23,569 nt of DNA from NCBI GenBank assembly GCA_934646965.1, contig CAKUEZ010000025.1, positions 1-23,569 on the forward strand, given 5' to 3'. This DNA comes from an uncultured Collinsella sp. (lineage in GTDB: Bacteria > Actinomycetota > Coriobacteriia > Coriobacteriales > Coriobacteriaceae). The notes beneath the pieces are model-generated. The model was not told the origin of the DNA. It searched no databases and was given only the letters and a program-made list of their open reading frames with translations. Shown piece by piece: positions 9,015 through 21,975 of this stretch. The position numbers and the translations under genes were made by a program. Numbering within the stretch: position 1 is the stretch's first letter; each line of letters opens with the position of its first letter.

Positions 9015-9205
9015 ATGGTACGTATCGGCGAGATGGATGCTTTATTCGCAGCGACCGTCACTCAGAGCCCTTAGGCAGGTACGCGCCCCTGCTGGCCGAC
9101 ACCCATAAAGTTCGGCAGACAATCGAGTATCGAATTGGACATGCATGTGCCCAATGGATTGATGTGGTGCGCGAAAATGAATGGCAATCAGATTGTTCTC
9201 TTTGA
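9015..9205 (+). pseudogene. small unidentified ORF, apparently frameshifted, before rhuM
   Basis: ATG 9015 has a near-ideal ribosome site (GGAGG at 9004-9008, six-base spacing) and opens MVRIGEMDALFAATVTQSP before a TAG at 9072. An in-frame ATG at 8976 would extend it to 32 residues as a leaderless start from the SOS promoter. Moving to the -1 frame just before the TAG continues as LGRYAPLLADTHKVRQ and then a protein-like stretch ending QWIDVVRENEWQSDCSL with a stop at 9203-9205, which overlaps the rhuM start by 29 bases. The strong ribosome site and natural composition suggest a real gene of about 60 residues that has lost or gained a base. No family is recognised and no slippery heptamer is seen. 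Confidence 0.35.
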
Positions 9206-10112
9206 ATCCAACGACCGAGAGGTCACGATTCCTGTTGTAATTGACAAAGGAAGCGAAACTGTATGGCTGACCCGAAATGAGATGGCAGCGCTGTTTGATA
9301 GGGATGTCAAAACAATCGGCAAGCATATCAATAACGCTTTAAAGGAGGAATTAAGCGACGATGATTCAGTTGTCGCAAAATTTGCGACAACTGCTGCTGA
9401 CGGTAAAAGATATCAAACTGATCATTACAGCTTAGACATGATATTGTCCATTGGATACCGCGTTAAATCCCAACGCGGTATTGAATTCCGTCGCTGGGCA
9501 ACCAATGTGCTCCACAAATTTATTATTCAAGGACACGTTGAAAACGAACGCAGGCTCGAGCAACTAGGGACAGTCGCTCAGATTATCGAACGTCTACCCG
9601 ACGACCTCGGTTCTCGCGAGATACTCGATATTGTTGAGAGCTATATAGATGTCTTTAAACTGCTCGATGAGTACGATCGTGAATCCATTGATCGGCCCAA
9701 GGGACAAACTGGGATATACACACTCGAATACGAGCTCTGTATGAAATTAATAGCCCAAATGCGCAGCCGATTTACGAGCGACCTGTTTGGCGTAGAAAAA
9801 GATCAGTCCCTCCGCAGCAGTATCTCGGTAATCAACCAGTCGTTTGGCGGCCAAGACCTCTATCAATCCGTTCAGGAAAAGGCAGCAAATCTGTTGTACC
9901 TCATCATCAAAAACCATTCATTTCTCGACGGAAACAAGCGCATCGGATGCAGCCTCTTTCTCTACTATCTAGATTGCAACGGACTGCTTTTTCGCGGCTT
10001 AGACAAACGAATCGCAGACAGCACGCTTGTAGCCGTCGCGCTCATGATAGCCGAGTCTAGACCTGAAGAAAAAGAATCTATGGTCTCTCTGGTTATGAAC
10101 TTTTTGGAGTAA
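9177..10112 (+). CDS. rhuM: RhuM family protein with C-terminal Fic/Doc domain
   Basis: The N-terminal RhuM domain is recognisable from TVWLTRNEMAALFDRDVKTI, followed by the conserved HINNALKEEL, the VVAKFATTAADGKRYQTDHY segment, SLDMILSIGYRV and GIEFRRWATNVLHKFI. The C-terminal domain has the Fic-type loop HSFLDGNKRIG at residues 247-257 (H247 catalytic, D251 and N253 for metal and phosphate). Fic enzymes transfer AMP or phosphate to hydroxyl side chains, and Doc is a toxin of this fold. RhuM was named as a Salmonella pathogenicity-island protein and its biochemical role is unsettled. The start at 9177 (311 residues) is chosen because the family begins just before this block; ATG 9135 would add 14 unconserved residues. 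The gene is AT-rich against its right-hand neighbours, which fits acquisition. A toxin or effector role is inference. Confidence 0.85.
   Translation: MNGNQIVLFESNDREVTIPVVIDKGSETVWLTRNEMAALFDRDVKTIGKHINNALKEELSDDDSVVAKFATTAADGKRYQTDHYSLDMILSIGYRVKSQRGIEFRRWATNVLHKFIIQGHVENERRLEQLGTVAQIIERLPDDLGSREILDIVESYIDVFKLLDEYDRESIDRPKGQTGIYTLEYELCMKLIAQMRSRFTSDLFGVEKDQSLRSSISVINQSFGGQDLYQSVQEKAANLLYLIIKNHSFLDGNKRIGCSLFLYYLDCNGLLFRGLDKRIADSTLVAVALMIAESRPEEKESMVSLVMNFLE
9367..9393 (+). repeat. perfect 13-bp inverted repeat inside rhuM
   Basis: CAGTTGTCGCAAA (9367-9379), one central A, then TTTGCGACAACTG (9381-9393). It encodes the conserved VVAKFATTA segment, so part of the symmetry may follow from the protein, but 26 symmetrical bases is more than coding needs. 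Confidence 0.7.
9455..9481 (+). repeat. perfect 10-bp inverted repeat inside rhuM
   Basis: ATACCGCGTT (9455-9464) and AACGCGGTAT (9472-9481) flank a 7-base loop AAATCCC. It lies within the GYRVKSQRGIEF coding stretch, about 60 bases after the first palindrome. Confidence 0.7.
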
Positions 10113-12177: not shown

Positions 12178-14496
12178 ATGATGGGATCAAACGTGAGCGA
12201 TACAAAGCTAAAGCCAACGGCTAAAAAGCCCGCTACCCGCAAGCCCGCTCCGCACGCACCGGAGCTTTCCAAGGACGATGTCTATCTGTTTGGCATCGGC
12301 ATGTGGGAGCGCAGCTGGGAAAAGATGGGCGCGCACCCCGACACGCAGAATCGTACGCGCGGCTGGCGTTTTTGCGTTTGGGCGCCCGACGTAAAGAGCG
12401 TGCATGTCATTGGCGAATTTAACGACTGGGACGAGGAAGCCAACCCGCTGGTGCCCGTGCATACGAGCGCTATCTGGGAAGGCTTTATTCCTGGCGCCGA
12501 GCAGGGCCAACTGTATAAGTACCTGATTGAGACCAACGAGGGCGAAAAGCTCTACAAGGCCGATCCGTACGCCTTTAAGGCCGAGTGCCCTCCGGGTACG
12601 GCCAGCGTGCTGTGGACCCTCGACGGTTATAAGTGGAACGACGCCGCGTGGCTCAAGCGCCGCGCCGGCCATAACCACATGTCCCAGCCGCTCAACATCT
12701 ACGAGGTGCATATTGGCTCGTGGAAGCGCCACGGCGACGCGCCCCAAGGCGAGCCCGACGAGTACGGCAACTATCCCGGCCCCATGGATCCCTTCCCCGC
12801 GCAGCGCGGCGAGTTCTACACCTACGACGACCTGTCGGTGGAGCTCGTGGACTACGTGCGCGACATGGGTTATACGCATATTGAGGTCATGCCGCTTATG
12901 GAGCATCCCTTCGATGGCTCCTGGGGCTACCAGACGACCGGCTACTATGCCGCCACGTCGCGCTACGGCGACCCGCAGCAGCTCATGCACTTTATCGATG
13001 CGTGCCACGAGGCTGGCATCGGCGTGATCATGGACTGGGTGCCCGGCGGTTTTTGCGCCGACTCCCACGGCCTTGCCACCTTTAACGGCCACATGCTGTT
13101 TGAGCACGAGATTCACCCCAACTGGGGCACGCATAAGTTCGATTTCGCCCGCGGCGAGGTCCGCTCCTTCCTGGTCTCCAACGTGCTGTACTGGCTCGAG
13201 AACTTCCACGTGGACGGCATTCGCATGGACGGTGTGTCCAGCATGCTGTACCTCAACTTTGGCATCGACGATCCCGGCCAAAAGAAGTTCAACAAGTACG
13301 GTACCGAGGAGGACCTGGACGCCAGCGCGTTTATCCGTCAGGTCAACTGCGCCGTTGAGGCTCACTACCCCGACGTGATGATGATGGCCGAGGAGTCCAC
13401 CGCGTGGCCGCTCGTGACCTATCCGCCGCAGGACGGCGGCCTGGGCTTCCACTACAAGTGGGACATGGGCTGGATGAACGACACCCTGCACTACATGCAG
13501 ACCGATTTTCCGTGGCGCCCCGGCAACCACGGCCTGCTCACGTTCTCCATCATGTACGCCTTTACCGAGAACTTTATCTGCCCCTTGAGCCACGACGAGG
13601 TCGTGCACGGCAAGTGCTCGCTGATCGGCCGTATGCCGGGCGACTGGTGGCGCCAGTTTGCCGGCCTGCGCACGCTGGCCTTCTACCAGATGACGCACCC
13701 CGGTGCCAAGCTCAACTTTATGGGCAACGAGATCGGCCAGTTTATCGAGTGGCGCTACTACGAGTCCATCCAGTGGTTCCTGACCGAGGAGTACGAGACT
13801 CACAAGCATCACCAGGCGTTTATCAAGGCGCTCAACCACCTGTATACCGCCGAGCCCGCCCTGTACGAGCGCGGCTATACCGACGACGGCTTTACCTGGA
13901 TCGATGCGGACAACTCCAAGCAGTCCATCGTGAGCTTTGTGCGTCAGGGCGAGGACGTCGACGACGATCTGGTGATCCTGATCAACTTTGACCCGGCGAG
14001 CTATGAGAGCTTCCGCGTGGGCGTGCCGCGCGAGGGTGACTGGGAGGTCATCTTCGATTCCGACCGTCCCGAGTTTGGCGGCAGCGGCTATGCCGGCGAG
14101 GAGCCCTACACCTGCTCGAGCGAGCCCTACCCGTGGAACGGGCAGATGGACTCTATCGAGATTAAGGTGCCCGGCCTGGCAGGCGTGGTGCTCAAGCGCC
14201 GCGGTCCCAGCAGCTATAAGCCGCCGGTGGTTGAGGAGCCGAAGAAGGCTACGCGTAAGCGCACGTCCTCGGTGAAGCCCAAGCCCAAGCCCAAGGCAGC
14301 GGCTGCCAAGAAGGCTCCGGCTAAGGCGAAGGCTGCTACGACCAAGGCAACCAAGGCCAAGGGTGCGGCAAAGCCCGCGACCAAGGCGACCGCGGTCAAG
14401 GCTACCGCGAAGCCTACGGCCAAGAAGCCGGCTGCCAAAAAGGCAACTACCAAGGCCAAGTCAGCTTCTGTTAAGTCGCCTGCCAAGGAAGCGTAA
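12178..14496 (+). CDS. glgB: 1,4-alpha-glucan branching enzyme with basic C-terminal tail
   Basis: A 772-residue GH13 enzyme that cuts alpha-1,4 chains and rejoins them as alpha-1,6 branches in glycogen. A CBM48-like domain lies near residues 60-145 (GEFNDWD). The catalytic barrel has DWVPGGF at 286-292, GIRMDGVSSML at 347-357 with nucleophile D351, AEEST at 404-408 with acid E405, and SHDEVV at 471-476 with D473. The all-beta C-domain ends near 675. About 97 further residues, rich in Lys, Ala, Pro and Thr, include VVEEPKKATRKRTSS and PAAKKATTKAK and resemble linker-histone tails. The first 27 residues are similarly basic. The start is uncertain: ATG 12178 has no clear ribosome site, while GTG 12193 has GGGA six bases upstream. 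It is the first gene of the glg operon. Confidence 0.95.
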   Translation: MMGSNVSDTKLKPTAKKPATRKPAPHAPELSKDDVYLFGIGMWERSWEKMGAHPDTQNRTRGWRFCVWAPDVKSVHVIGEFNDWDEEANPLVPVHTSAIWEGFIPGAEQGQLYKYLIETNEGEKLYKADPYAFKAECPPGTASVLWTLDGYKWNDAAWLKRRAGHNHMSQPLNIYEVHIGSWKRHGDAPQGEPDEYGNYPGPMDPFPAQRGEFYTYDDLSVELVDYVRDMGYTHIEVMPLMEHPFDGSWGYQTTGYYAATSRYGDPQQLMHFIDACHEAGIGVIMDWVPGGFCADSHGLATFNGHMLFEHEIHPNWGTHKFDFARGEVRSFLVSNVLYWLENFHVDGIRMDGVSSMLYLNFGIDDPGQKKFNKYGTEEDLDASAFIRQVNCAVEAHYPDVMMMAEESTAWPLVTYPPQDGGLGFHYKWDMGWMNDTLHYMQTDFPWRPGNHGLLTFSIMYAFTENFICPLSHDEVVHGKCSLIGRMPGDWWRQFAGLRTLAFYQMTHPGAKLNFMGNEIGQFIEWRYYESIQWFLTEEYETHKHHQAFIKALNHLYTAEPALYERGYTDDGFTWIDADNSKQSIVSFVRQGEDVDDDLVILINFDPASYESFRVGVPREGDWEVIFDSDRPEFGGSGYAGEEPYTCSSEPYPWNGQMDSIEIKVPGLAGVVLKRRGPSSYKPPVVEEPKKATRKRTSSVKPKPKPKAAAAKKAPAKAKAATTKATKAKGAAKPATKATAVKATAKPTAKKPAAKKATTKAKSASVKSPAKEA

Positions 14497-14588: not shown

Positions 14589-17015
14589 ATGAATAAGATC
14601 TTCGACAACAAGCAGGAGTTTACCGAGCTCTATCGCGATGCCGTCATGAGCATTAGCGGCAAGAGCGTCGAGGCCGCCAGCGACCTCGACCGCTTTAACG
14701 CCCTGGCCAAGCTCGTGGCCGAGAAGGCGCGCACCGTCGCCACCGCCAGCGACGCCCGCGTCACCGCCGAGGGCAAGAAGCGCGTGTACTACTTCTCGAT
14801 CGAGTTTTTGATCGGCCGCCTGCTCGACAACTACCTGCTCAACTTTGGCGTGCGCGACATGGTCGCCGAGGCGCTCGACGATATGGGCTTCGACCTGTCC
14901 GTCATCGAGAACCAGGAGCCCGATCCGGCTCTGGGCAACGGTGGCCTGGGCCGCCTGGCCGCATGCTTCCTGGATTCCATGGCAGCCGAGGGCATTGCCG
15001 GCTACGGCAACGGCATGCGCTACCGCTACGGCCTGTTTAAGCAGGAGATCGTCAACGGCAGCCAGGTCGAGACCACCGACGAGTGGCTCACCCACGGCTA
15101 TCCCTGGGAGGTCCGTCGTCAGGACAAGGCCGTGACCATCAAGTTTGGTGGCCACGTTGAGGGCTTTGAGGAGGACGGCCGCACGTTCTACCGCACGGTG
15201 GATACGCAGGACATCCTGGCCGTTCCCTACGACATCCCCGTCGTTGGCTATGCCGGCGAGACCGTCAACAAGCTGCGCGTTTGGGCTGCTGAGCCGGTCG
15301 TAGAGCACTTTGACCTGGAGGCCTTCAACCGCGGCGACTATGCTCTCGCCGACGCCGAGCGCGCCGAGGCCGAGGCCATCAGCGCCATCCTTTACCCCAA
15401 CGACGCCGGCGAGCACGGCCGTCTGCTGCGCCTGAAGCAGGAGTACCTGTTTGTCTCCGCCGGCATCTACAGCCTGCTCGACACCTTTGAGAAGGAGCAC
15501 GGCGAGAACTGGGAGCTGCTGCCGCAGTTTGTGGCCATCCACACCAACGACACCCACCCCGCCATGTGCGGCCCCGAGCTCATGCGCATCCTCATCGACG
15601 AAAAGAAGCTCGAGTGGGACGACGCCTGGAACATCGTGACGCAGGTCGTGAGCTACACCAACCACACCATCCTGCCCGAGGCCCTGGAGAAGTGGCCCAT
15701 CGGCACGTTCTCCAAGCTCCTCCCCCGCGTGTACCAGATCATCGACGAGATCAGCCGTCGCTGGCACGAGTCGTTCGACACCACGCAGGAGGGCTGGCAG
15801 GAGCGTCTGCGCCAGACCGCCATTCTGTGGGACGGCGAGATTCGCATGGCCAACCTGTCCGTGATCTGCAGCCACAGCGTCAACGGCGTGGCCAAGATTC
15901 ACTCCGACATCATTAAGAACATCGTGCTCAAGGACTTCTACGCCCTCACGCCCGAGAAGTTCAACAACAAGACCAACGGCATCTCGCACCGTCGCTTCTT
16001 TGCCGAAGCCAACCCCACCTACGCCAAGCTCGTGACCGAGGCCATTGGCGACGGCTGGCTCAAGGACGCCTTTGAGCTGGAGAAACTTAAGGAGTTCCAG
16101 AACGACAGCGAGTTCCTGAAGGCCGTGGGTGCCTCCAAGCGCGCCAACAAGGAGCGTCTGGCCGACTACGTTAAGGCCGAGACCGGCCTGGTTATCGACC
16201 CCAACACCGTCTTCGATGTTCAGGTGAAGCGCTTCCACGCCTACAAGCGCCAGCTTATGAACATCATGAAGGTGATGGACATCTACAACCGTCGCATCGC
16301 CGATCCCAACTTCCACGTGACGCCGACGACCTTCATCTTTAGCGGCAAGGCTGCCTCGAGCTACACCTTTGCCAAAGAGACCATCCGCCTCATCAACTCC
16401 GTCGCCGAGGTCGTCAACAACGACCCGCGTGTGAACGAGGTCATGAAGGTCTGCTTTATCCCCAACTTCCGCGTGAGCAACGCCCAGCTCATCTACCCCG
16501 CCGCCGAGATCTCTGAGCAGATTTCGACCGCCGGCAAGGAGGCCTCGGGCACGTCCAACATGAAGCTCATGATGAACGGCGCCATTACGCTGGGTACCCT
16601 CGACGGCGCCAACATCGAGATCGCCGACCTGGCCGGCCGCGAGAACGAGGCCATCTTTGGCCTGACCGCTCCCGAGGTCGAGCAGCTCTGGGCATCCAAC
16701 AGCTACTTTGCGTGGGATACCCTCAACGGCGACCGCGAGCGTCTGGGCCGCGTGATGGACGAGCTCAAGGACAACACCTTTGCGGGTCTTTCGGGCAACT
16801 TCGAGAGCATCTACAACGAGCTCATGAACAACAACGACCCCGACCTGGTCATGGCAGATTTCCGCAGCTACGTGGATGCGTGGGAGAAGCTCACGGGCAG
16901 CTACGGCGACCAGGAGACCTGGAACCGCAAGGCGCTGCTCAACACCGCGTCCAGTGGCTGGTTCTCGAGCGATCGCACCATTCGCGAGTACCGCGACGAG
17001 ATCTGGCACGCGTAG
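14589..17015 (+). CDS. glgP: glycogen/maltodextrin phosphorylase
   Basis: An 808-residue PLP-dependent GT35 enzyme that releases glucose-1-phosphate from the non-reducing ends of glycogen in the cytoplasm. It has YYFSIEFLIGR near residues 67-77, NGGLGRLAACFLDS near 117-130, the IHTNDTHPAM block, the KRFHAYKRQLMN segment, and the phosphorylase signature EASGTSNMKLMMNGA with K659 as the lysine that forms the Schiff base with PLP. Length matches bacterial phosphorylases, and unlike its operon partners GlgB and GlgA it has no basic tail. ATG 14589 follows GGGGGAAAGGA. It sits 92 bases after glgB and 104 before glgC, both gaps holding hairpins, which fits one transcript with internal processing or tuning. 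Confidence 0.96.
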   Translation: MNKIFDNKQEFTELYRDAVMSISGKSVEAASDLDRFNALAKLVAEKARTVATASDARVTAEGKKRVYYFSIEFLIGRLLDNYLLNFGVRDMVAEALDDMGFDLSVIENQEPDPALGNGGLGRLAACFLDSMAAEGIAGYGNGMRYRYGLFKQEIVNGSQVETTDEWLTHGYPWEVRRQDKAVTIKFGGHVEGFEEDGRTFYRTVDTQDILAVPYDIPVVGYAGETVNKLRVWAAEPVVEHFDLEAFNRGDYALADAERAEAEAISAILYPNDAGEHGRLLRLKQEYLFVSAGIYSLLDTFEKEHGENWELLPQFVAIHTNDTHPAMCGPELMRILIDEKKLEWDDAWNIVTQVVSYTNHTILPEALEKWPIGTFSKLLPRVYQIIDEISRRWHESFDTTQEGWQERLRQTAILWDGEIRMANLSVICSHSVNGVAKIHSDIIKNIVLKDFYALTPEKFNNKTNGISHRRFFAEANPTYAKLVTEAIGDGWLKDAFELEKLKEFQNDSEFLKAVGASKRANKERLADYVKAETGLVIDPNTVFDVQVKRFHAYKRQLMNIMKVMDIYNRRIADPNFHVTPTTFIFSGKAASSYTFAKETIRLINSVAEVVNNDPRVNEVMKVCFIPNFRVSNAQLIYPAAEISEQISTAGKEASGTSNMKLMMNGAITLGTLDGANIEIADLAGRENEAIFGLTAPEVEQLWASNSYFAWDTLNGDRERLGRVMDELKDNTFAGLSGNFESIYNELMNNNDPDLVMADFRSYVDAWEKLTGSYGDQETWNRKALLNTASSGWFSSDRTIREYRDEIWHA

Positions 17016-17119: not shown

Positions 17120-18268
17120 ATGAGTAAGAAAGAATGCATCGCGATGCTCCTCGCAGGAGGACAGGGCAGCCGATTGGGGGCACTCACCCAAAAGATCGCT
17201 AAGCCGGCGGTTAGCTTTGGTGGCAAGTTCCGCATTATCGACTTTTCGCTCTCCAACTGCTCCAACTCGGGCATCGACACGGTGGGCGTTCTGACGCAGT
17301 ATCGTCCCTACCTGCTGCATGCCTACGTGGGCTCCGGCGAGGCCTGGGATCTGGACAGCCGTGACGGCGGCGTGTCGATCCTCCCGCCGTACGAGACGCA
17401 GACCGGCGGCGCCTGGTATGCGGGCACGGCCGACGCCATCACGCAGAACCTGGACTACATCAAGGCCAACGATCCCAAGTACGTCCTGATTCTTTCCGGC
17501 GACCACCTGTATCGCATGGATTACCGCAAGATGCTCAAGACGCACATCGAGAACAACGCCGACCTCACGGTGAGCGTTATGCCCGTGCCGTGGGAGGAGG
17601 CCAGCCGCTTTGGCATCCTGACCACCGACCCCGAGGACGGCCGCATCACCAAGTTTACCGAGAAGCCCGAGAAGCCCGATTCGAACCTCGCGTCCATGGG
17701 CATCTACATCTTCTCGGCCGACGTGCTGATCGAGGCCCTCGAGGAGGACGCCCTGGACCAGCGCTCGAGCCACGACTTTGGCAAGGACATCATCCCCAAG
17801 CTGCTCGGCGAGGACAAGCGCCTGTACAGCTACGAGTTCCACGGCTTTTGGAAGGACGTCGGCACCATCGCCAGCTTCCACGAGACCTCGATGGACCTGC
17901 TGGGCAACAACCCCGAGTTCGACCTCTTTGACAAGAGCTTCCCCATCATGTCCAACATCACCACGCGTCCGCCGCACTACATTGGCCCGGACGGCCGCCT
18001 GGACGACTGCCTGGTCTCCAACGGCTGCAAGATCTACGGCACCGCTCGCCACTCGATCCTTTCGACCGATGTCATCATCGAGGAGCGTGCCGTGGTCGAG
18101 GACTCCGTGCTGCTGCCGGGTGCGCACGTTAAGAGCGGCGCGCACATCTGTCGCGCCATTTTGGGCGAGAACTCCACGGTCGAAGAGGGCGTGAAGCTCG
18201 GCTCTGTCGATACCACCAAGGATACGGCCGTCGTTGGAAATGACGTCGTTATCGGGAAGGGGGAATGA
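17120..18268 (+). CDS. glgC: glucose-1-phosphate adenylyltransferase, catalytic subunit
   Basis: A 382-residue nucleotidyltransferase that makes ADP-glucose from glucose-1-phosphate and ATP, the committed step of bacterial glycogen synthesis. It has the pyrophosphorylase loop [14 protein letters not shown] with G13, G14, G16 and R18 intact, [13 protein letters not shown] at 34-46, [10 protein letters not shown] at 126-135 with D128 as the metal-binding aspartate, and FTEKPEKP at 179-186 as the glucose-1-phosphate site. A left-handed beta-helix lies from about residue 290. GAAGGAG is seven bases before ATG 17120. Four bases separate its stop from glgD, so the two subunits are made together. 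It is one of the two-subunit GlgCD type known from Bacillus-like and related Gram-positives. Confidence 0.95.
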
Positions 18269-18272
18269 TCCG

Positions 18273-19400
18273 ATGATCAATCGCAAGGCCATCGGTTATA
18301 TCACCGCTAACTACTCTTCGACCTACGGCAGCGTGCTGCTCAAGGACCGCCCCATCGCGTCCGTTCCGTTTTTGGGCCGCTACCGCCTGATCGACTTCCC
18401 GCTGTCCAACATGATGAATGCCGGCATTAAGACCGTCGGCGTCGTCATGCCGGGTAACTACCGCTCGCTGATCGACCACGTGGGCTCGGGCAAGGACTGG
18501 GGCCTGGACCGCAAGAAGGGCGGCCTGTTCATGGTGCCCGGCAACGCGTATGGCACCACCAAGGGCGGCATGCGCTTCCTGCTGCGCGACATCATCTCCA
18601 ACAAGACGCTGTTCCAGCGCTCGGACAAGCCCTATGTCGTGATGATGGGCACCAACATCATCTTTAACATGGACCTCAACACCATCATCGAGGCGCACGA
18701 GAACTCCGGTGCCCAGATGACCGTGGTGTACTGCAAGGCCACGCGCAATGTTGATGACGAGACCAAGCTCGAGATTAACGAGAACGGCCGCCTGACGGGC
18801 GTGAGCGCCGGCGTCGTGTACGGCGACAACGCGTCCATGGACTGCTGCATCGTCAACCGCGAGACGCTGCTCGAGATCATCGATCACTACCAGGCCGCCG
18901 ATTATCTGGACCTGCTCGAGGCACTCCAGGGCGACTTTGGCAACATCGACGTGTGCAGCTACGAGTACAAGGGCGAGGTCGTGGGCGTGTTTAGCGAGAA
19001 GTCGCTGTATCGCCGCAGCATGGACCTGCTCGACCAGACCGTGGCCGACCAGCTCTTCGACCCCGAGCGCCCGATCCTGACCAAGGCCCACGACGTGCCG
19101 CCCTCGCGCTACGCGACCGGTAGCCACGCCTGCAACTCGATCATCTCGGCCGGCTGCATCATCAAGGGCACCGTGCGCAACTCGATCCTGTCGCGCGGCG
19201 TCGTGGTTGAGGAAGGCGCCTCGGTGACCAACTCGATCATCAACCAGAGCTGCATCATCAAGAGTGGCGCCCGCGTCGAGAACGCCATCTTGGACAAGAA
19301 CAACGTGGTGCCCACCAACACCGAGCTTCGCGGCACGCCCGAGAACATCCTGGTGCTGGGCAAGGCTCCGTTAACTTCCGATACCACCATCGCTCGTTAA
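18273..19400 (+). CDS. glgD: glucose-1-phosphate adenylyltransferase, non-catalytic subunit
   Basis: A 375-residue GlgC homologue whose active-site motifs are degenerate. The glycine-rich pyrophosphorylase loop is replaced by ITANYSSTYGSVLLKDRP at residues 10-27, and the metal-binding SGDHLYRMD is replaced by MGTNIIFNMD at 125-134. The fold-forming GRYRLIDFPLSN (35-46), the GSGKDWGLDRKKGG loop (71-84) and the C-terminal beta-helix remain. In studied Gram-positive systems GlgD raises the activity of GlgC in a mixed complex and makes little product alone. ATG 18273 is chosen because GGGGGA lies eight bases before it, it begins the conserved region, and it lies four bases after glgC; an upstream ATG at 18234 would overlap glgC and add 13 unconserved residues. 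Confidence 0.93.
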   Translation: MINRKAIGYITANYSSTYGSVLLKDRPIASVPFLGRYRLIDFPLSNMMNAGIKTVGVVMPGNYRSLIDHVGSGKDWGLDRKKGGLFMVPGNAYGTTKGGMRFLLRDIISNKTLFQRSDKPYVVMMGTNIIFNMDLNTIIEAHENSGAQMTVVYCKATRNVDDETKLEINENGRLTGVSAGVVYGDNASMDCCIVNRETLLEIIDHYQAADYLDLLEALQGDFGNIDVCSYEYKGEVVGVFSEKSLYRRSMDLLDQTVADQLFDPERPILTKAHDVPPSRYATGSHACNSIISAGCIIKGTVRNSILSRGVVVEEGASVTNSIINQSCIIKSGARVENAILDKNNVVPTNTELRGTPENILVLGKAPLTSDTTIAR

Positions 19401-19467: not shown

Positions 19468-19490
19468 CGAATTGCAACATGGGAGACAAT

Positions 19491-21815
19491 ATGGCAGAAA
19501 CCAGCAAAAAGATGCAGATCGTGTTTGCCTCGGCCGAGTGCGCACCGTTTGTTAAGACCGGTGGCCTGGGTGACGTGGCGGGCTCGCTGCCCTCGGCGCT
19601 CGTGCGCGCCGGCGCCGAAGTCATCGTGATGGTGCCCAAGTACGCCACCATCAAGGACGAGTACAAGGCGCAGATGGAGCATTTCTCCGACTTTTACGTG
19701 AGCCTGGGCTGGCGCAACGAGTACTGCGGACTCGAGAAGCTCGAGCACGACGGCGTCACCTATATGTTTATCGACAACGAGCGCTACTTTGCGCGCGACT
19801 ATCCGTACGGCTTCTTTGACGACGGCGAGCGCTTTGCGTTCTTCTCCAAGGCCATCACCGAGAGCCTGCAGCACCTGCCGGCCGGCTTTGAGTGCGACAT
19901 CCTGCACTGCAACGACTGGCAGACGGCACTGGCGCCCGTGTTTTTGCGCGAGTTCTACCAGGGCCTGCCGCTGTACGACCGCGTCAAGACCGTGTTCTCG
20001 ATCCACAACGTGGCGTTCCAGGGCCAGTTTAGCGACACCGTGATGGAGGACATCCTGGGCGTGGCGCATATTCCGGCGGCCGCCTCGCAGCTGCGTTGCG
20101 ACGCCTGCAGCGTCAACTACATGCTGGGCGCGCTGCGCTATGCCGACGCCATCACCACGGTAAGCCCCACCTATGCCAGCGAGATCCAGACGCCCGAGTT
20201 TGGCGAGGGCCTGGACGGCGTGCTGCGCGAGCGTTCCTACGCACTGCAGGGCATTTTGAATGGCATCGATGTGGCGGGCTTTGACCCGGCGACCGATACG
20301 CGCATTGCCGCCAACTACACGGTTGAGGACCGCTCCGGCAAGGCTGTGTGCAAGGCCAAGCTGCAGGAAGAGCTGGGGCTCGAGGTTCGCGACGACCGTC
20401 CGCTCATGGTTATGGTCACGCGCCTGACGCGCCAGAAGGGCATGGACCTGGTCATGTACGCGCTCGACCGCATTTTGGCCGGCGGCGTGCAGGTGGCGGT
20501 GCTGGGCACCGGCGACCGCGACTACGAGGATGGCCTTCGCTACTTCCAGGACAAGTACCCCGGCACCATGGCCGCACGTATCGAGTTTGATCCGGCGCTG
20601 TCGCAGCGCATGTATGCCGCTGCCGACATGTTCCTGATGCCTTCGAAGTTTGAGCCCTGTGGCCTGTCGCAGATCATCGCCATGCGCTACGGCACCCTGC
20701 CCATCGTGCGCGAGACCGGCGGCCTGAAGGACACCGTGCAGCCGTACAACGAGTTTACCGGCGAGGGCACGGGCTTCTCGTTTAGCAACTTTAACGGCGA
20801 CGAGATGGGCGACGCGGTCTTCCGCGCGGCACGTCTGTTCTGGGACAACCGCGACGCTTGGAACCAGCTGGTCACGCAGGCCATGAGCCAGGACTTTAGC
20901 TGGACGCGCTCGGCGGATAAGTATCTGGATCTGTACTTCTTTATGCATCCGGAGATCGAGAGGCCGGCGGCTGTGGAGGCTGCTGCGCCTGTTGAGGAGC
21001 CTGCTGCTGTTGAGGAGCCTAAGGTTGAGCCCGAGGTTGTGGCCGAGCCGGTTGTTGAGGCGCCCGTTGCTGTTGAGGAGCCCAAGGTTGAGGAGAAGCC
21101 GGTTGAGGCTACTCCCGAGATAAAGGCCAAGGCCACAGCAGAGGCTGCTCCCGAGCCCGAGGCCAAGCCGGCTGCGAAGCCTGCCGCCAAGAAGACCACG
21201 ACGCGCAAGACGACGGCCAAGAAGGCTACGACGACCAAGGCCGCTGCCATCAAGACGACTGCCTCCAAGGCAACGACCACGCGCAAGCGCACGACCGTTG
21301 CCGCCAAGACTGAGGTCACTCCCGAGGTAAAGGCCGAGGCACCTGCTGTTGAGGCCAAGCCCGCGGCAAAGGCTCCGGCAAAGACCGCTGCCAAGAAGAC
21401 GACCGCGGCTAAGGCTACGACTGCCAAGAAGACTACGGCAACGAAGACGACCACCAAGGCCGCCGCAAAGTCTGCTGCCAAGGTCGAGGAGACGCCCGTC
21501 GAGCCCAAGGCAGAGGCCAAGCCGGCCGCCAAGACCACCACGCGCAAGCGCACCACGACGACGGCCAAGAAGACCACGGCAAAGGCAGCTGCTCCCAAGG
21601 CAGAGGCAAAGCCTGCGGTAAAGGCCGAGCCGGCACCGAAGGCCACCGAGGCTAAGACCGAGACCAAGGCCGCTCCGAAGACTGAGGCCAAGGTTGAGGC
21701 AAAGGTCAAGCCCGCCAAGGAGACCCCGGTCTCCCCCGCCGCTCCGGTCGAGGATAAGGCTCCTTCCAAGAAGACTTCCGTCCGCAAGGCTACGGCCACC
21801 CGCAAGCGCCGCTAA
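19491..21815 (+). CDS. glgA: glycogen synthase with a very long Lys/Ala/Thr/Pro-rich C-terminal tail
   Basis: A 774-residue GT5 enzyme that moves glucose from ADP-glucose onto glycogen chains. The synthase part spans about residues 1-488, a normal GlgA length, with KTGGLGDVAGSLP at 22-34 (K22 binds ADP-glucose), HCNDWQT and SIHNVAFQG in the N-domain, TRLTRQKG, and the catalytic KFEPCGLSQ near 384-392. Residues after about 489 form a 286-residue low-complexity extension: first acidic VEEP/PEV repeats, then basic blocks such as AAKPAAKKTTTRKTTAKK, with TRKR three times, the last within the terminal six residues. ATG 19491 is preferred since GGGAGA lies four bases upstream; ATG 19479 adds four residues. 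The tail is not part of the known enzyme family. Confidence 0.95.
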   Translation: MAETSKKMQIVFASAECAPFVKTGGLGDVAGSLPSALVRAGAEVIVMVPKYATIKDEYKAQMEHFSDFYVSLGWRNEYCGLEKLEHDGVTYMFIDNERYFARDYPYGFFDDGERFAFFSKAITESLQHLPAGFECDILHCNDWQTALAPVFLREFYQGLPLYDRVKTVFSIHNVAFQGQFSDTVMEDILGVAHIPAAASQLRCDACSVNYMLGALRYADAITTVSPTYASEIQTPEFGEGLDGVLRERSYALQGILNGIDVAGFDPATDTRIAANYTVEDRSGKAVCKAKLQEELGLEVRDDRPLMVMVTRLTRQKGMDLVMYALDRILAGGVQVAVLGTGDRDYEDGLRYFQDKYPGTMAARIEFDPALSQRMYAAADMFLMPSKFEPCGLSQIIAMRYGTLPIVRETGGLKDTVQPYNEFTGEGTGFSFSNFNGDEMGDAVFRAARLFWDNRDAWNQLVTQAMSQDFSWTRSADKYLDLYFFMHPEIERPAAVEAAAPVEEPAAVEEPKVEPEVVAEPVVEAPVAVEEPKVEEKPVEATPEIKAKATAEAAPEPEAKPAAKPAAKKTTTRKTTAKKATTTKAAAIKTTASKATTTRKRTTVAAKTEVTPEVKAEAPAVEAKPAAKAPAKTAAKKTTAAKATTAKKTTATKTTTKAAAKSAAKVEETPVEPKAEAKPAAKTTTRKRTTTTAKKTTAKAAAPKAEAKPAVKAEPAPKATEAKTETKAAPKTEAKVEAKVKPAKETPVSPAAPVEDKAPSKKTSVRKATATRKRR

Positions 21816-21880: not shown

Positions 21881-21975
21881 GTAGATTTTTGGGACATGCC
21901 TTAAAATCTACCTTTTGACTTAGCGACCGAGCGCGTCATAAAAGGTAGATTTTAAGGCATGTCCCAAAAATCTAC
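21881..21975. repeat. 36-bp perfect inverted repeat (23-base spacer) after glgA
   Basis: The left arm 21881-21916 begins GTAGATTTTTGGGACATGCC and ends CTACCTTTT. The right arm 21940-21975 is its exact reverse complement. Each arm contains its own smaller dyad (GTAGATTTT with AAAATCTAC), so the element is a dyad of dyads. It directly follows the glg terminator. No transposase or target-site duplication is seen. It may be a palindromic intergenic repeat, a small non-autonomous mobile element, or a bidirectional transcription barrier. Confidence 0.9.

Follow-up and report, generated by a model that had tools for sequence, protein, structure and literature searches.

What are the long, low-complexity tails for that end two enzymes of a Collinsella glycogen operon, and do the two tails belong together? 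The window, which is the whole stretch of 23,569 nucleotides that we analysed, comes from a Collinsella close to C. aerofaciens and contains the operon in the order glgB-glgP-glgC-glgD-glgA. Its last gene encodes an ADP-glucose glycogen synthase, GlgA, that is 95-99% identical to the GlgA of 20 Collinsella loci (L001-L020). An initial annotation had noted a tail on this enzyme and another on the branching enzyme GlgB, and had proposed that they form a matched, designed assembly system.

The glycogen operon and its two tailed enzymes

GlgA is a full-length member of NF001898, with 658.7 bits against a cut-off of 603 over residues 12-486. GlgB is a full-length member of NF008967, with 814.1 bits against a cut-off of 577; of its 772 residues, the family match covers 30 to 675 and stops there. 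The features of the operon, all on the forward strand, are the following.

12178..12276, +, basic N-terminal leader of GlgB, KLKPTAKKPATRKPA, residues 1-33, net charge +4
12277..14202, +, GlgB branching enzyme body, residues 34-675, net charge -47, pI 4.8 (NF008967, residues 30-675)
14203..14493, +, C-terminal polycation tail of GlgB, residues 676-772, net charge +26 (composition, charge)
14589..17012, +, GlgP, glycogen phosphorylase, tail-free (TIGR02093, 8-807 of 808)
17120..18265, +, GlgC, glucose-1-phosphate adenylyltransferase, tail-free (NF003670, 3-379 of 382)
18273..19397, +, GlgD, tail-free (TIGR02092)
19479-21815, +, gene of GlgA, ADP-glucose glycogen synthase, 778 codons before the stop
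19479..20954, +, GlgA catalytic part, residues 1-492, net charge -24, pI 4.7 (NF001898/TIGR02095, residues 12-486)
20955..21158, +, GlgA tail, acidic proximal block, residues 493-560, net charge -12 (composition, charge; pLDDT below 50)
21159..21767, +, GlgA tail, basic distal block with AKKTT, TTRK and PAAK runs, residues 561-763 (composition, charge, pLDDT)
21768..21812, +, conserved C-terminal 15-mer of GlgA, KKTSVRKATATRKRR, residues 764-778 (pN/pS, 22 genomes)

The N-terminal leader of GlgB (12178-12276) is similar across the C. aerofaciens clade. Just 3' of glgA, at 21881-21975, lies a perfect 36-nt inverted repeat with a 23-nt loop. Its 22-base core has one to five matches per genome (at most two mismatches) in four related genomes, and the repeat looks like a small dispersed palindromic element. 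Between a polysaccharide gene cluster and the glg genes, the ORF at 9135-10112 contains an HSFLDGNKR stretch, which we take to recall the Fic/Doc motif.

GlgA ends in a long, acidic-then-basic extension

Since the GlgA family match stops at residue 486, positions 20955-21812 constitute a 286-residue extension (residues 493-778) that makes up 36.8% of the 778-residue protein, in agreement with the initial annotation. The acidic-then-basic order described there is confirmed as well: the first 68 residues carry a net charge of -12 and the other 218 a net charge of +39, for a net +27 over the tail, whose terminus indeed reads TRKRR. Ten amino acids are missing from it, and A, K, T, E, P and V account for 267 of the 286 residues.

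The tail is predicted to be intrinsically disordered. In an AlphaFold2 model built with 20 aligned sequences, residues 495-774 of a 774-residue form of GlgA lie below a pLDDT of 50, and the enzyme part is folded with confidence.

Within the operon, the tails are restricted to GlgA and GlgB. GlgP, GlgC and GlgD, already described as lacking them, extend by at most 9, 27 and 9 residues beyond the aligned region (81, 82 and 82 loci, respectively); one GlgD alignment that ends early (L102) was set aside from this count.

With 53 lysines in the GlgA tail and 27 in that of GlgB, the tails might conceivably act as a post-translational switch, in which modified (for example, acetylated) lysines would report the energy state and gate glycogen synthesis. 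It is the lysine count that would suggest such a switch; no modifying enzyme is found among the five glg genes, and we consider this reading very unlikely.

The GlgA and GlgB tails are not of one design

The case for a common design had rested on VEEPK followed by TRKR in both tails, with three copies in GlgA. The succession is present in both, and its copy number needs correction: in the GlgA tail VEEPK occurs twice (residues 511 and 532), VEEP three times and TRKR three times (residues 601, 688 and 774), and the GlgB tail has one VEEPK and one TRKR. Shuffled sequences of equal composition have these motifs far less often than the tails of the window do, so they are not due to chance in this genome. 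They are local nonetheless. Within the C. aerofaciens clade, VEEPK then TRKR is found in 4 of 22 GlgA and 8 of 22 GlgB sequences; among the other family members read, one of 31 GlgA and none of 32 GlgB sequences have it. We therefore rejected VEEPK...TRKR as an address common to both tails, the motif being local to one clade. No string longer than six residues is shared by the two tails of the window, and 65 of 200 shuffled pairs reach this length.

The tails also differ in the arrangement of their charges. The GlgB tail is a plain polycation without an acidic block, and therefore the two are not of one design, contrary to what had been proposed. Across genomes, all 56 complete GlgA tails are net positive and have a positive distal third (L059 and L101, both cut, and L073, with undetermined bases, are left out of this count). 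Their proximal third is negative in 33 and not net negative in 23, and the acid-to-basic order is significant against shuffles (p<0.01) in 39. Among the 73 GlgB tails of at least 20 residues, 72 are net positive and none has a negative proximal third; the acid-to-basic order reaches p<0.01 in a single one, and 10 are devoid of any acidic residue. These counts differ to the point that the design of GlgA is not that of GlgB.

GlgB tails are more widespread than GlgA tails

We read the tails at the glg loci of 43 Collinsella-genus genomes and of 40 genomes of the class, hand-picked from a class-wide draw. A long-frame GlgA is found in 43 of 43 genus genomes, though in one of them the contig ends within the tail. 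The window's family, f1, was further represented by 15 fetched genomes from outside the genus. Of these, 11 have the GlgA tail (again with one truncated by the end of its contig); the other four, all of genus g67, lack it and carry the GlgB tail alone. Beyond f1, the GlgA tail is found at two of 17 loci of family f3 (L115 and L129), at one of seven loci of family f5 (L119) and at L025. The class-wide draw gave a GlgA match in 201 of 296 genomes, many of them weak. In a search of a protein database with the GlgA tail, all matches listed (120 of 7953) carry GlgA-type domains.

The GlgB tail is spread more widely. Of 58 f1 genomes fetched, 56 have GlgB on the stretch, in each case with a tail of at least 22 residues, and net charges are +2 to +31 among the f1 tails compared. 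In f3, which may be Atopobiaceae, GlgB is seen at 14 of 17 loci, with a tail of at least 52 residues at 13 and of 19 residues at one; the GlgB open frames of f3 agree with these readings. A second branching-enzyme match, at about 40-44% identity, occurs in a number of f3 genomes (for example, G208:C85 and G187:C8), its frames being mostly 600-700 residues long. Outside the class, 62 of 119 phylum-wide genomes have a branching enzyme over the cut-off; a lysine-rich C-terminal tail was found at none of 30 loci drawn, non-randomly, from the best-scoring of them. Two of these loci, L168 and L178, have other low-complexity ends, and the stretch at L161 taken for a GlgB tail resembles a different enzyme.

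The tails had been presented as paired on the two enzymes, and the survey bears this out only in part. Among the 76 genomes with both enzymes seen (in nine more GlgB lies off the stretch), 57 have both tails, 16 the GlgB tail alone, 3 neither and none the GlgA tail alone. Two of the 16 are borderline, with 22-residue tails (L120 and L123, the latter of net charge -2); the other 14 have at least 52 residues. With 16 cases of one kind and none of the other, the GlgA-tailed genomes form a nested subset of the GlgB-tailed ones: the GlgB tail does not need that of GlgA.

In a tree of 85 GlgA catalytic domains, the tail state changes at least four times for GlgA (tails of at least 30 residues) and at least twice for GlgB (at least 20 residues, of which K+R make up at least 12%). 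The tree was built quickly and its branches are long, and such changes count gains and losses alike. The GlgA tail seems to have arisen more than once, with gain, rather than loss, as the direction that we infer. The plain lysine-rich tail of GlgB is the more widespread and probably the older element in the order.

The two tails vary independently

The initial annotation had itself named tails that vary independently between species as evidence against its proposal, and independent variation is what we observe. The log tail lengths of GlgA and GlgB are uncorrelated under PIC (r 0.09, p 0.50, 52 genomes). Their raw rank correlation (0.34, p 0.013) is gone under this treatment and is thus attributable to ancestry. 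The net charges of the two tails (r -0.13, p 0.28) are likewise uncorrelated under PIC, as are the charge of the GlgA proximal third and that of the GlgB tail (r -0.18, p 0.13). Compensation of charge between body and tail was considered too and rejected: raw rank correlations of -0.41 and -0.40 shrink to r -0.06 to -0.005 (p>0.5) with phylogenetic contrasts. The tails are not present and sized together as those of a co-evolved GlgA-GlgB scaffold pair, and a designed, matched pair is not supported.

Both tails are under selection, and the GlgA terminus is nearly frozen

Across 22 C. aerofaciens-clade sequences, the GlgA tail has a dN/dS of 0.25, against 0.04 in the body, and the GlgB tail one of 0.33, against 0.03; the tail values are rough, since alignments of repetitive sequence hold many gaps. 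The analysis supports that both tails are conserved and under purifying selection. The strongest constraint is at the very end of GlgA: over 22 genomes compared end to end, the last 15 codons have a pN of 0.014 and a pS of 0.204, against 0.102 and 0.188 for the preceding 15. The 15-mer is almost frozen, constrained like the enzyme body. Elsewhere in the family, related ends (such as TSVSAARKTTTRKKR) occur in 11 of 31 tails, or in 17 of 31 by a looser pattern.

We rejected the GlgA terminus as a general address tag, a V-S-A-A-R-K pattern having met no other C-terminal end in eight genomes, one of them more distant. Searched as degenerate DNA, this pattern matched the GlgA end in five of the eight; its four other matches, of which G020 has one and G061 three, fall well within their frames, 34 to 117 residues short of the end, in non-matching sequence.

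Selection bears on two alternatives. The tails could be low-complexity drift, functionless products of slippage or repeat expansion in dispensable ends, as their plasticity would suggest: among 52 family members their lengths run from 105 to 473 residues in GlgA and from 22 to 140 in GlgB, and gap cells per pair and column amount to 0.12 and 0.06, respectively. Drift is nevertheless hard to reconcile with a dN/dS well below 1 and a conserved GlgA terminus, with a GlgB tail in 57 of 57 GlgA-tailed genomes where GlgB is seen, with the tail-free GlgP, GlgC and GlgD of the same operon, with at least four changes of GlgA tail state, with the mirrored tail of a second GlgA and with the lack of a comparable tail in a 400-kb genome sample (both described below). 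We find it improbable.

The other alternative is a brush for solubility or against occlusion, which would prevent burial or aggregation of the enzymes on dense glucan, and for which only overall charge and length would matter. It is consistent with a sequence that diverges fast under a stable composition, with the finding that, of the five operon enzymes, only those building at the particle surface are tailed, and with the lack of co-variation between GlgA and GlgB. Yet the near-frozen 15-mer and the net positive charge of 72 of 73 GlgB tails ask for more than a generic brush, which stays a serious though unlikely rival.

A second glycogen synthase carries the mirrored order at its other end

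Some genomes of f3, another family of the order, encode a paralogous GlgA that shares 44-47% identity with Collinsella GlgA in the catalytic domain. This second GlgA (L154-L158 and L219-L227) sits apart from the operon GlgA. In 11 of 12 genomes it is at least 74% identical to the query copy of L158, and in G233 56%. It has an N-terminal tail of about 100-350 residues in 9 of the 12 genomes, of about 32 in two and almost none in one. The starts were set by a simple rule, and an internal start would cut two of the tails to about 205 residues.

In all nine long tails the acidic residues are on average nearer to the catalytic domain, with p<0.01 in three of the nine. The tail of L158 has the order of the operon GlgA in mirror image: basic TRKTTTRKTTK runs are distal, and a long EPEPVVEAAPEPEP run adjoins the enzyme. 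These nine tails are related and hence do not represent nine independent events. The mirrored order is still our strongest hint that the charge order has a purpose.

Similar tails are rare, and a lysine-rich composition is not specific to glycogen

In the parts of genomes that we examined such tails are rare but not exclusive to GlgA and GlgB. In the Collinsella genome G003, a single contig, two degenerate DNA patterns gave 69 matches (31 in the reversed control) and 18 (10 in the control), and candidates were inspected in 11 further stretches. Clustered matches fall in GlgA, GlgB and a topoisomerase I, with weak ones in a short unknown protein and in ribosomal protein L17. In a sample of G003 stretches taken at even spacing, 400 kb in all (17% of the genome), three ORFs exceed a K-based threshold (a version that counts R and E was swamped by wrong frames), with scores of at most 33 of 40; GlgA and GlgB score 40, and no other tail of this sample is comparable to theirs. 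The GlgB tail, used as bait in seven genomes with HMMER, retrieved GlgB itself in four and otherwise weak pieces.

The topoisomerase I of G003 (L139:2731-5313) ends in a KAT-rich tail of about 44 residues; its best match is NF005555, and it scores just below the cut-off of the archaeal-type model TIGR01057. The GatB of an f3 genome (G098; L150:2554-4827) has a C-terminal tail of about 150 residues, rich in lysine, alanine and proline. As such tails also end unrelated proteins, composition alone does not point to glycogen.

Nucleic-acid tethering is a third alternative, in which the lysine-rich ends would bind DNA or RNA and glycogen synthesis would be anchored at the nucleoid or adjusted by RNA. 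Apart from GlgA and GlgB, the partial scans of G003 brought up one comparable tail, that of a topoisomerase I, and the lysine repeats of actinobacterial TopA are said to be similar to histone H1 and to make the enzyme processive (PMC7398561). The likeness to TopA is compositional only, though; the whole of GlgA is near-neutral (net +3), which together with its acidic block would weaken DNA binding; and glycogen needs no template. Tethering thus appears rather improbable.

Polyphosphate, another polyanion that had been put forward, loses ground as a required partner. PPK1 (PF02503) is found in 39 of 42 Collinsella-genus genomes; G017, G025 and G027, in which it has no match, keep the GlgA tail and some GlgB tail, that of G025 being short. 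Polyphosphate made by PPK1 is therefore not a strict need.

A tentative role in concentrating glycogen synthesis

The placing and sizing of glycogen particles in bacteria are poorly understood. Our results point to a real but undescribed role of the tails in where or how glycogen is made. The reading that we favour, tentatively, is that they are selected electrostatic retention modules that concentrate the glycogen-building enzymes. Sitting on the synthase and the branching enzyme, which build the glucan at the particle surface, the disordered tails would act through their charge. GlgA would have gained the longer one, acidic near the catalytic domain and basic at its far end, on the background of a GlgB tail. 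The polycation ends may make many weak contacts with acidic partners, for which the strongly acidic bodies of the neighbouring Glg enzymes, the acidic block of a GlgA tail, and a cellular polyanion (RNA or DNA, for example) are candidates. Such contacts could hold the synthase and the branching enzyme at high local concentration while glycogen is made, and the acidic block may serve as a spacer that holds the basic end off its own catalytic domain. The acidic bodies of GlgA and GlgB (-24 and -47) speak for this reading; the lack of co-variation in length and charge, the 23 of 56 GlgA tails whose proximal third is not net negative, and a significant order in only three of nine second-GlgA tails speak against it.

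A more elaborate and distinctly doubtful version would have coriobacterial glycogen made in a true synthesis body, a condensate of the acidic enzymes held together by the GlgB polycation and by GlgA tails with their charge blocks as electrostatic cross-links; selection would have rebuilt the GlgA tail repeatedly, at either terminus, each time with the acidic part by the enzyme.

Related gut bacteria offer a natural series, in which both enzymes are tailed, only GlgB is, or neither is, and to which a second synthase tailed at its other end belongs. This series makes the role of the tails testable by deletion and swapping.

Comparison with known systems

Searches of open-licence full texts brought up nothing pertinent, whether on GlgA or GlgB tails or on the glycogen of Collinsella. 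A review (PMC11046441) makes no mention of a disordered, lysine-rich or N-terminal extension in 300,000 of its 445,374 characters. With the GlgA and GlgB of other bacterial glycogen operons, the window has the catalytic domains and the operon in common. Disorder plays a role in plant starch synthases. For these enzymes and for granule-initiation proteins, protein interplay and the placing of starch synthesis are described in two articles (PMC6156364, PMC10801857). The system differs in belonging to plants.

In composition, the tails are of the type seen in TopA and HupB, which are K/A/P/T-rich, strongly basic and disordered; the disorder comes from the predicted fold of the GlgA tail, and the basic content amounts to +26 in 97 residues for the GlgB tail and +39 in 218 residues for the distal part of GlgA. 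HupB of mycobacteria and HupS of Streptomyces are HU proteins with a lysine/alanine-rich C-terminal tail. They differ in being DNA-binding proteins. Actinobacterial topoisomerase I resembles GlgA and GlgB in that an enzyme carries C-terminal, histone H1-like lysine-rich repeats (PMC7398561). Its substrate, however, is DNA, whereas GlgA and GlgB act on an uncharged glucan and the GlgA tail includes an acidic block. A lysine-repeat tail, known from DNA enzymes, would extend to polysaccharide synthesis.
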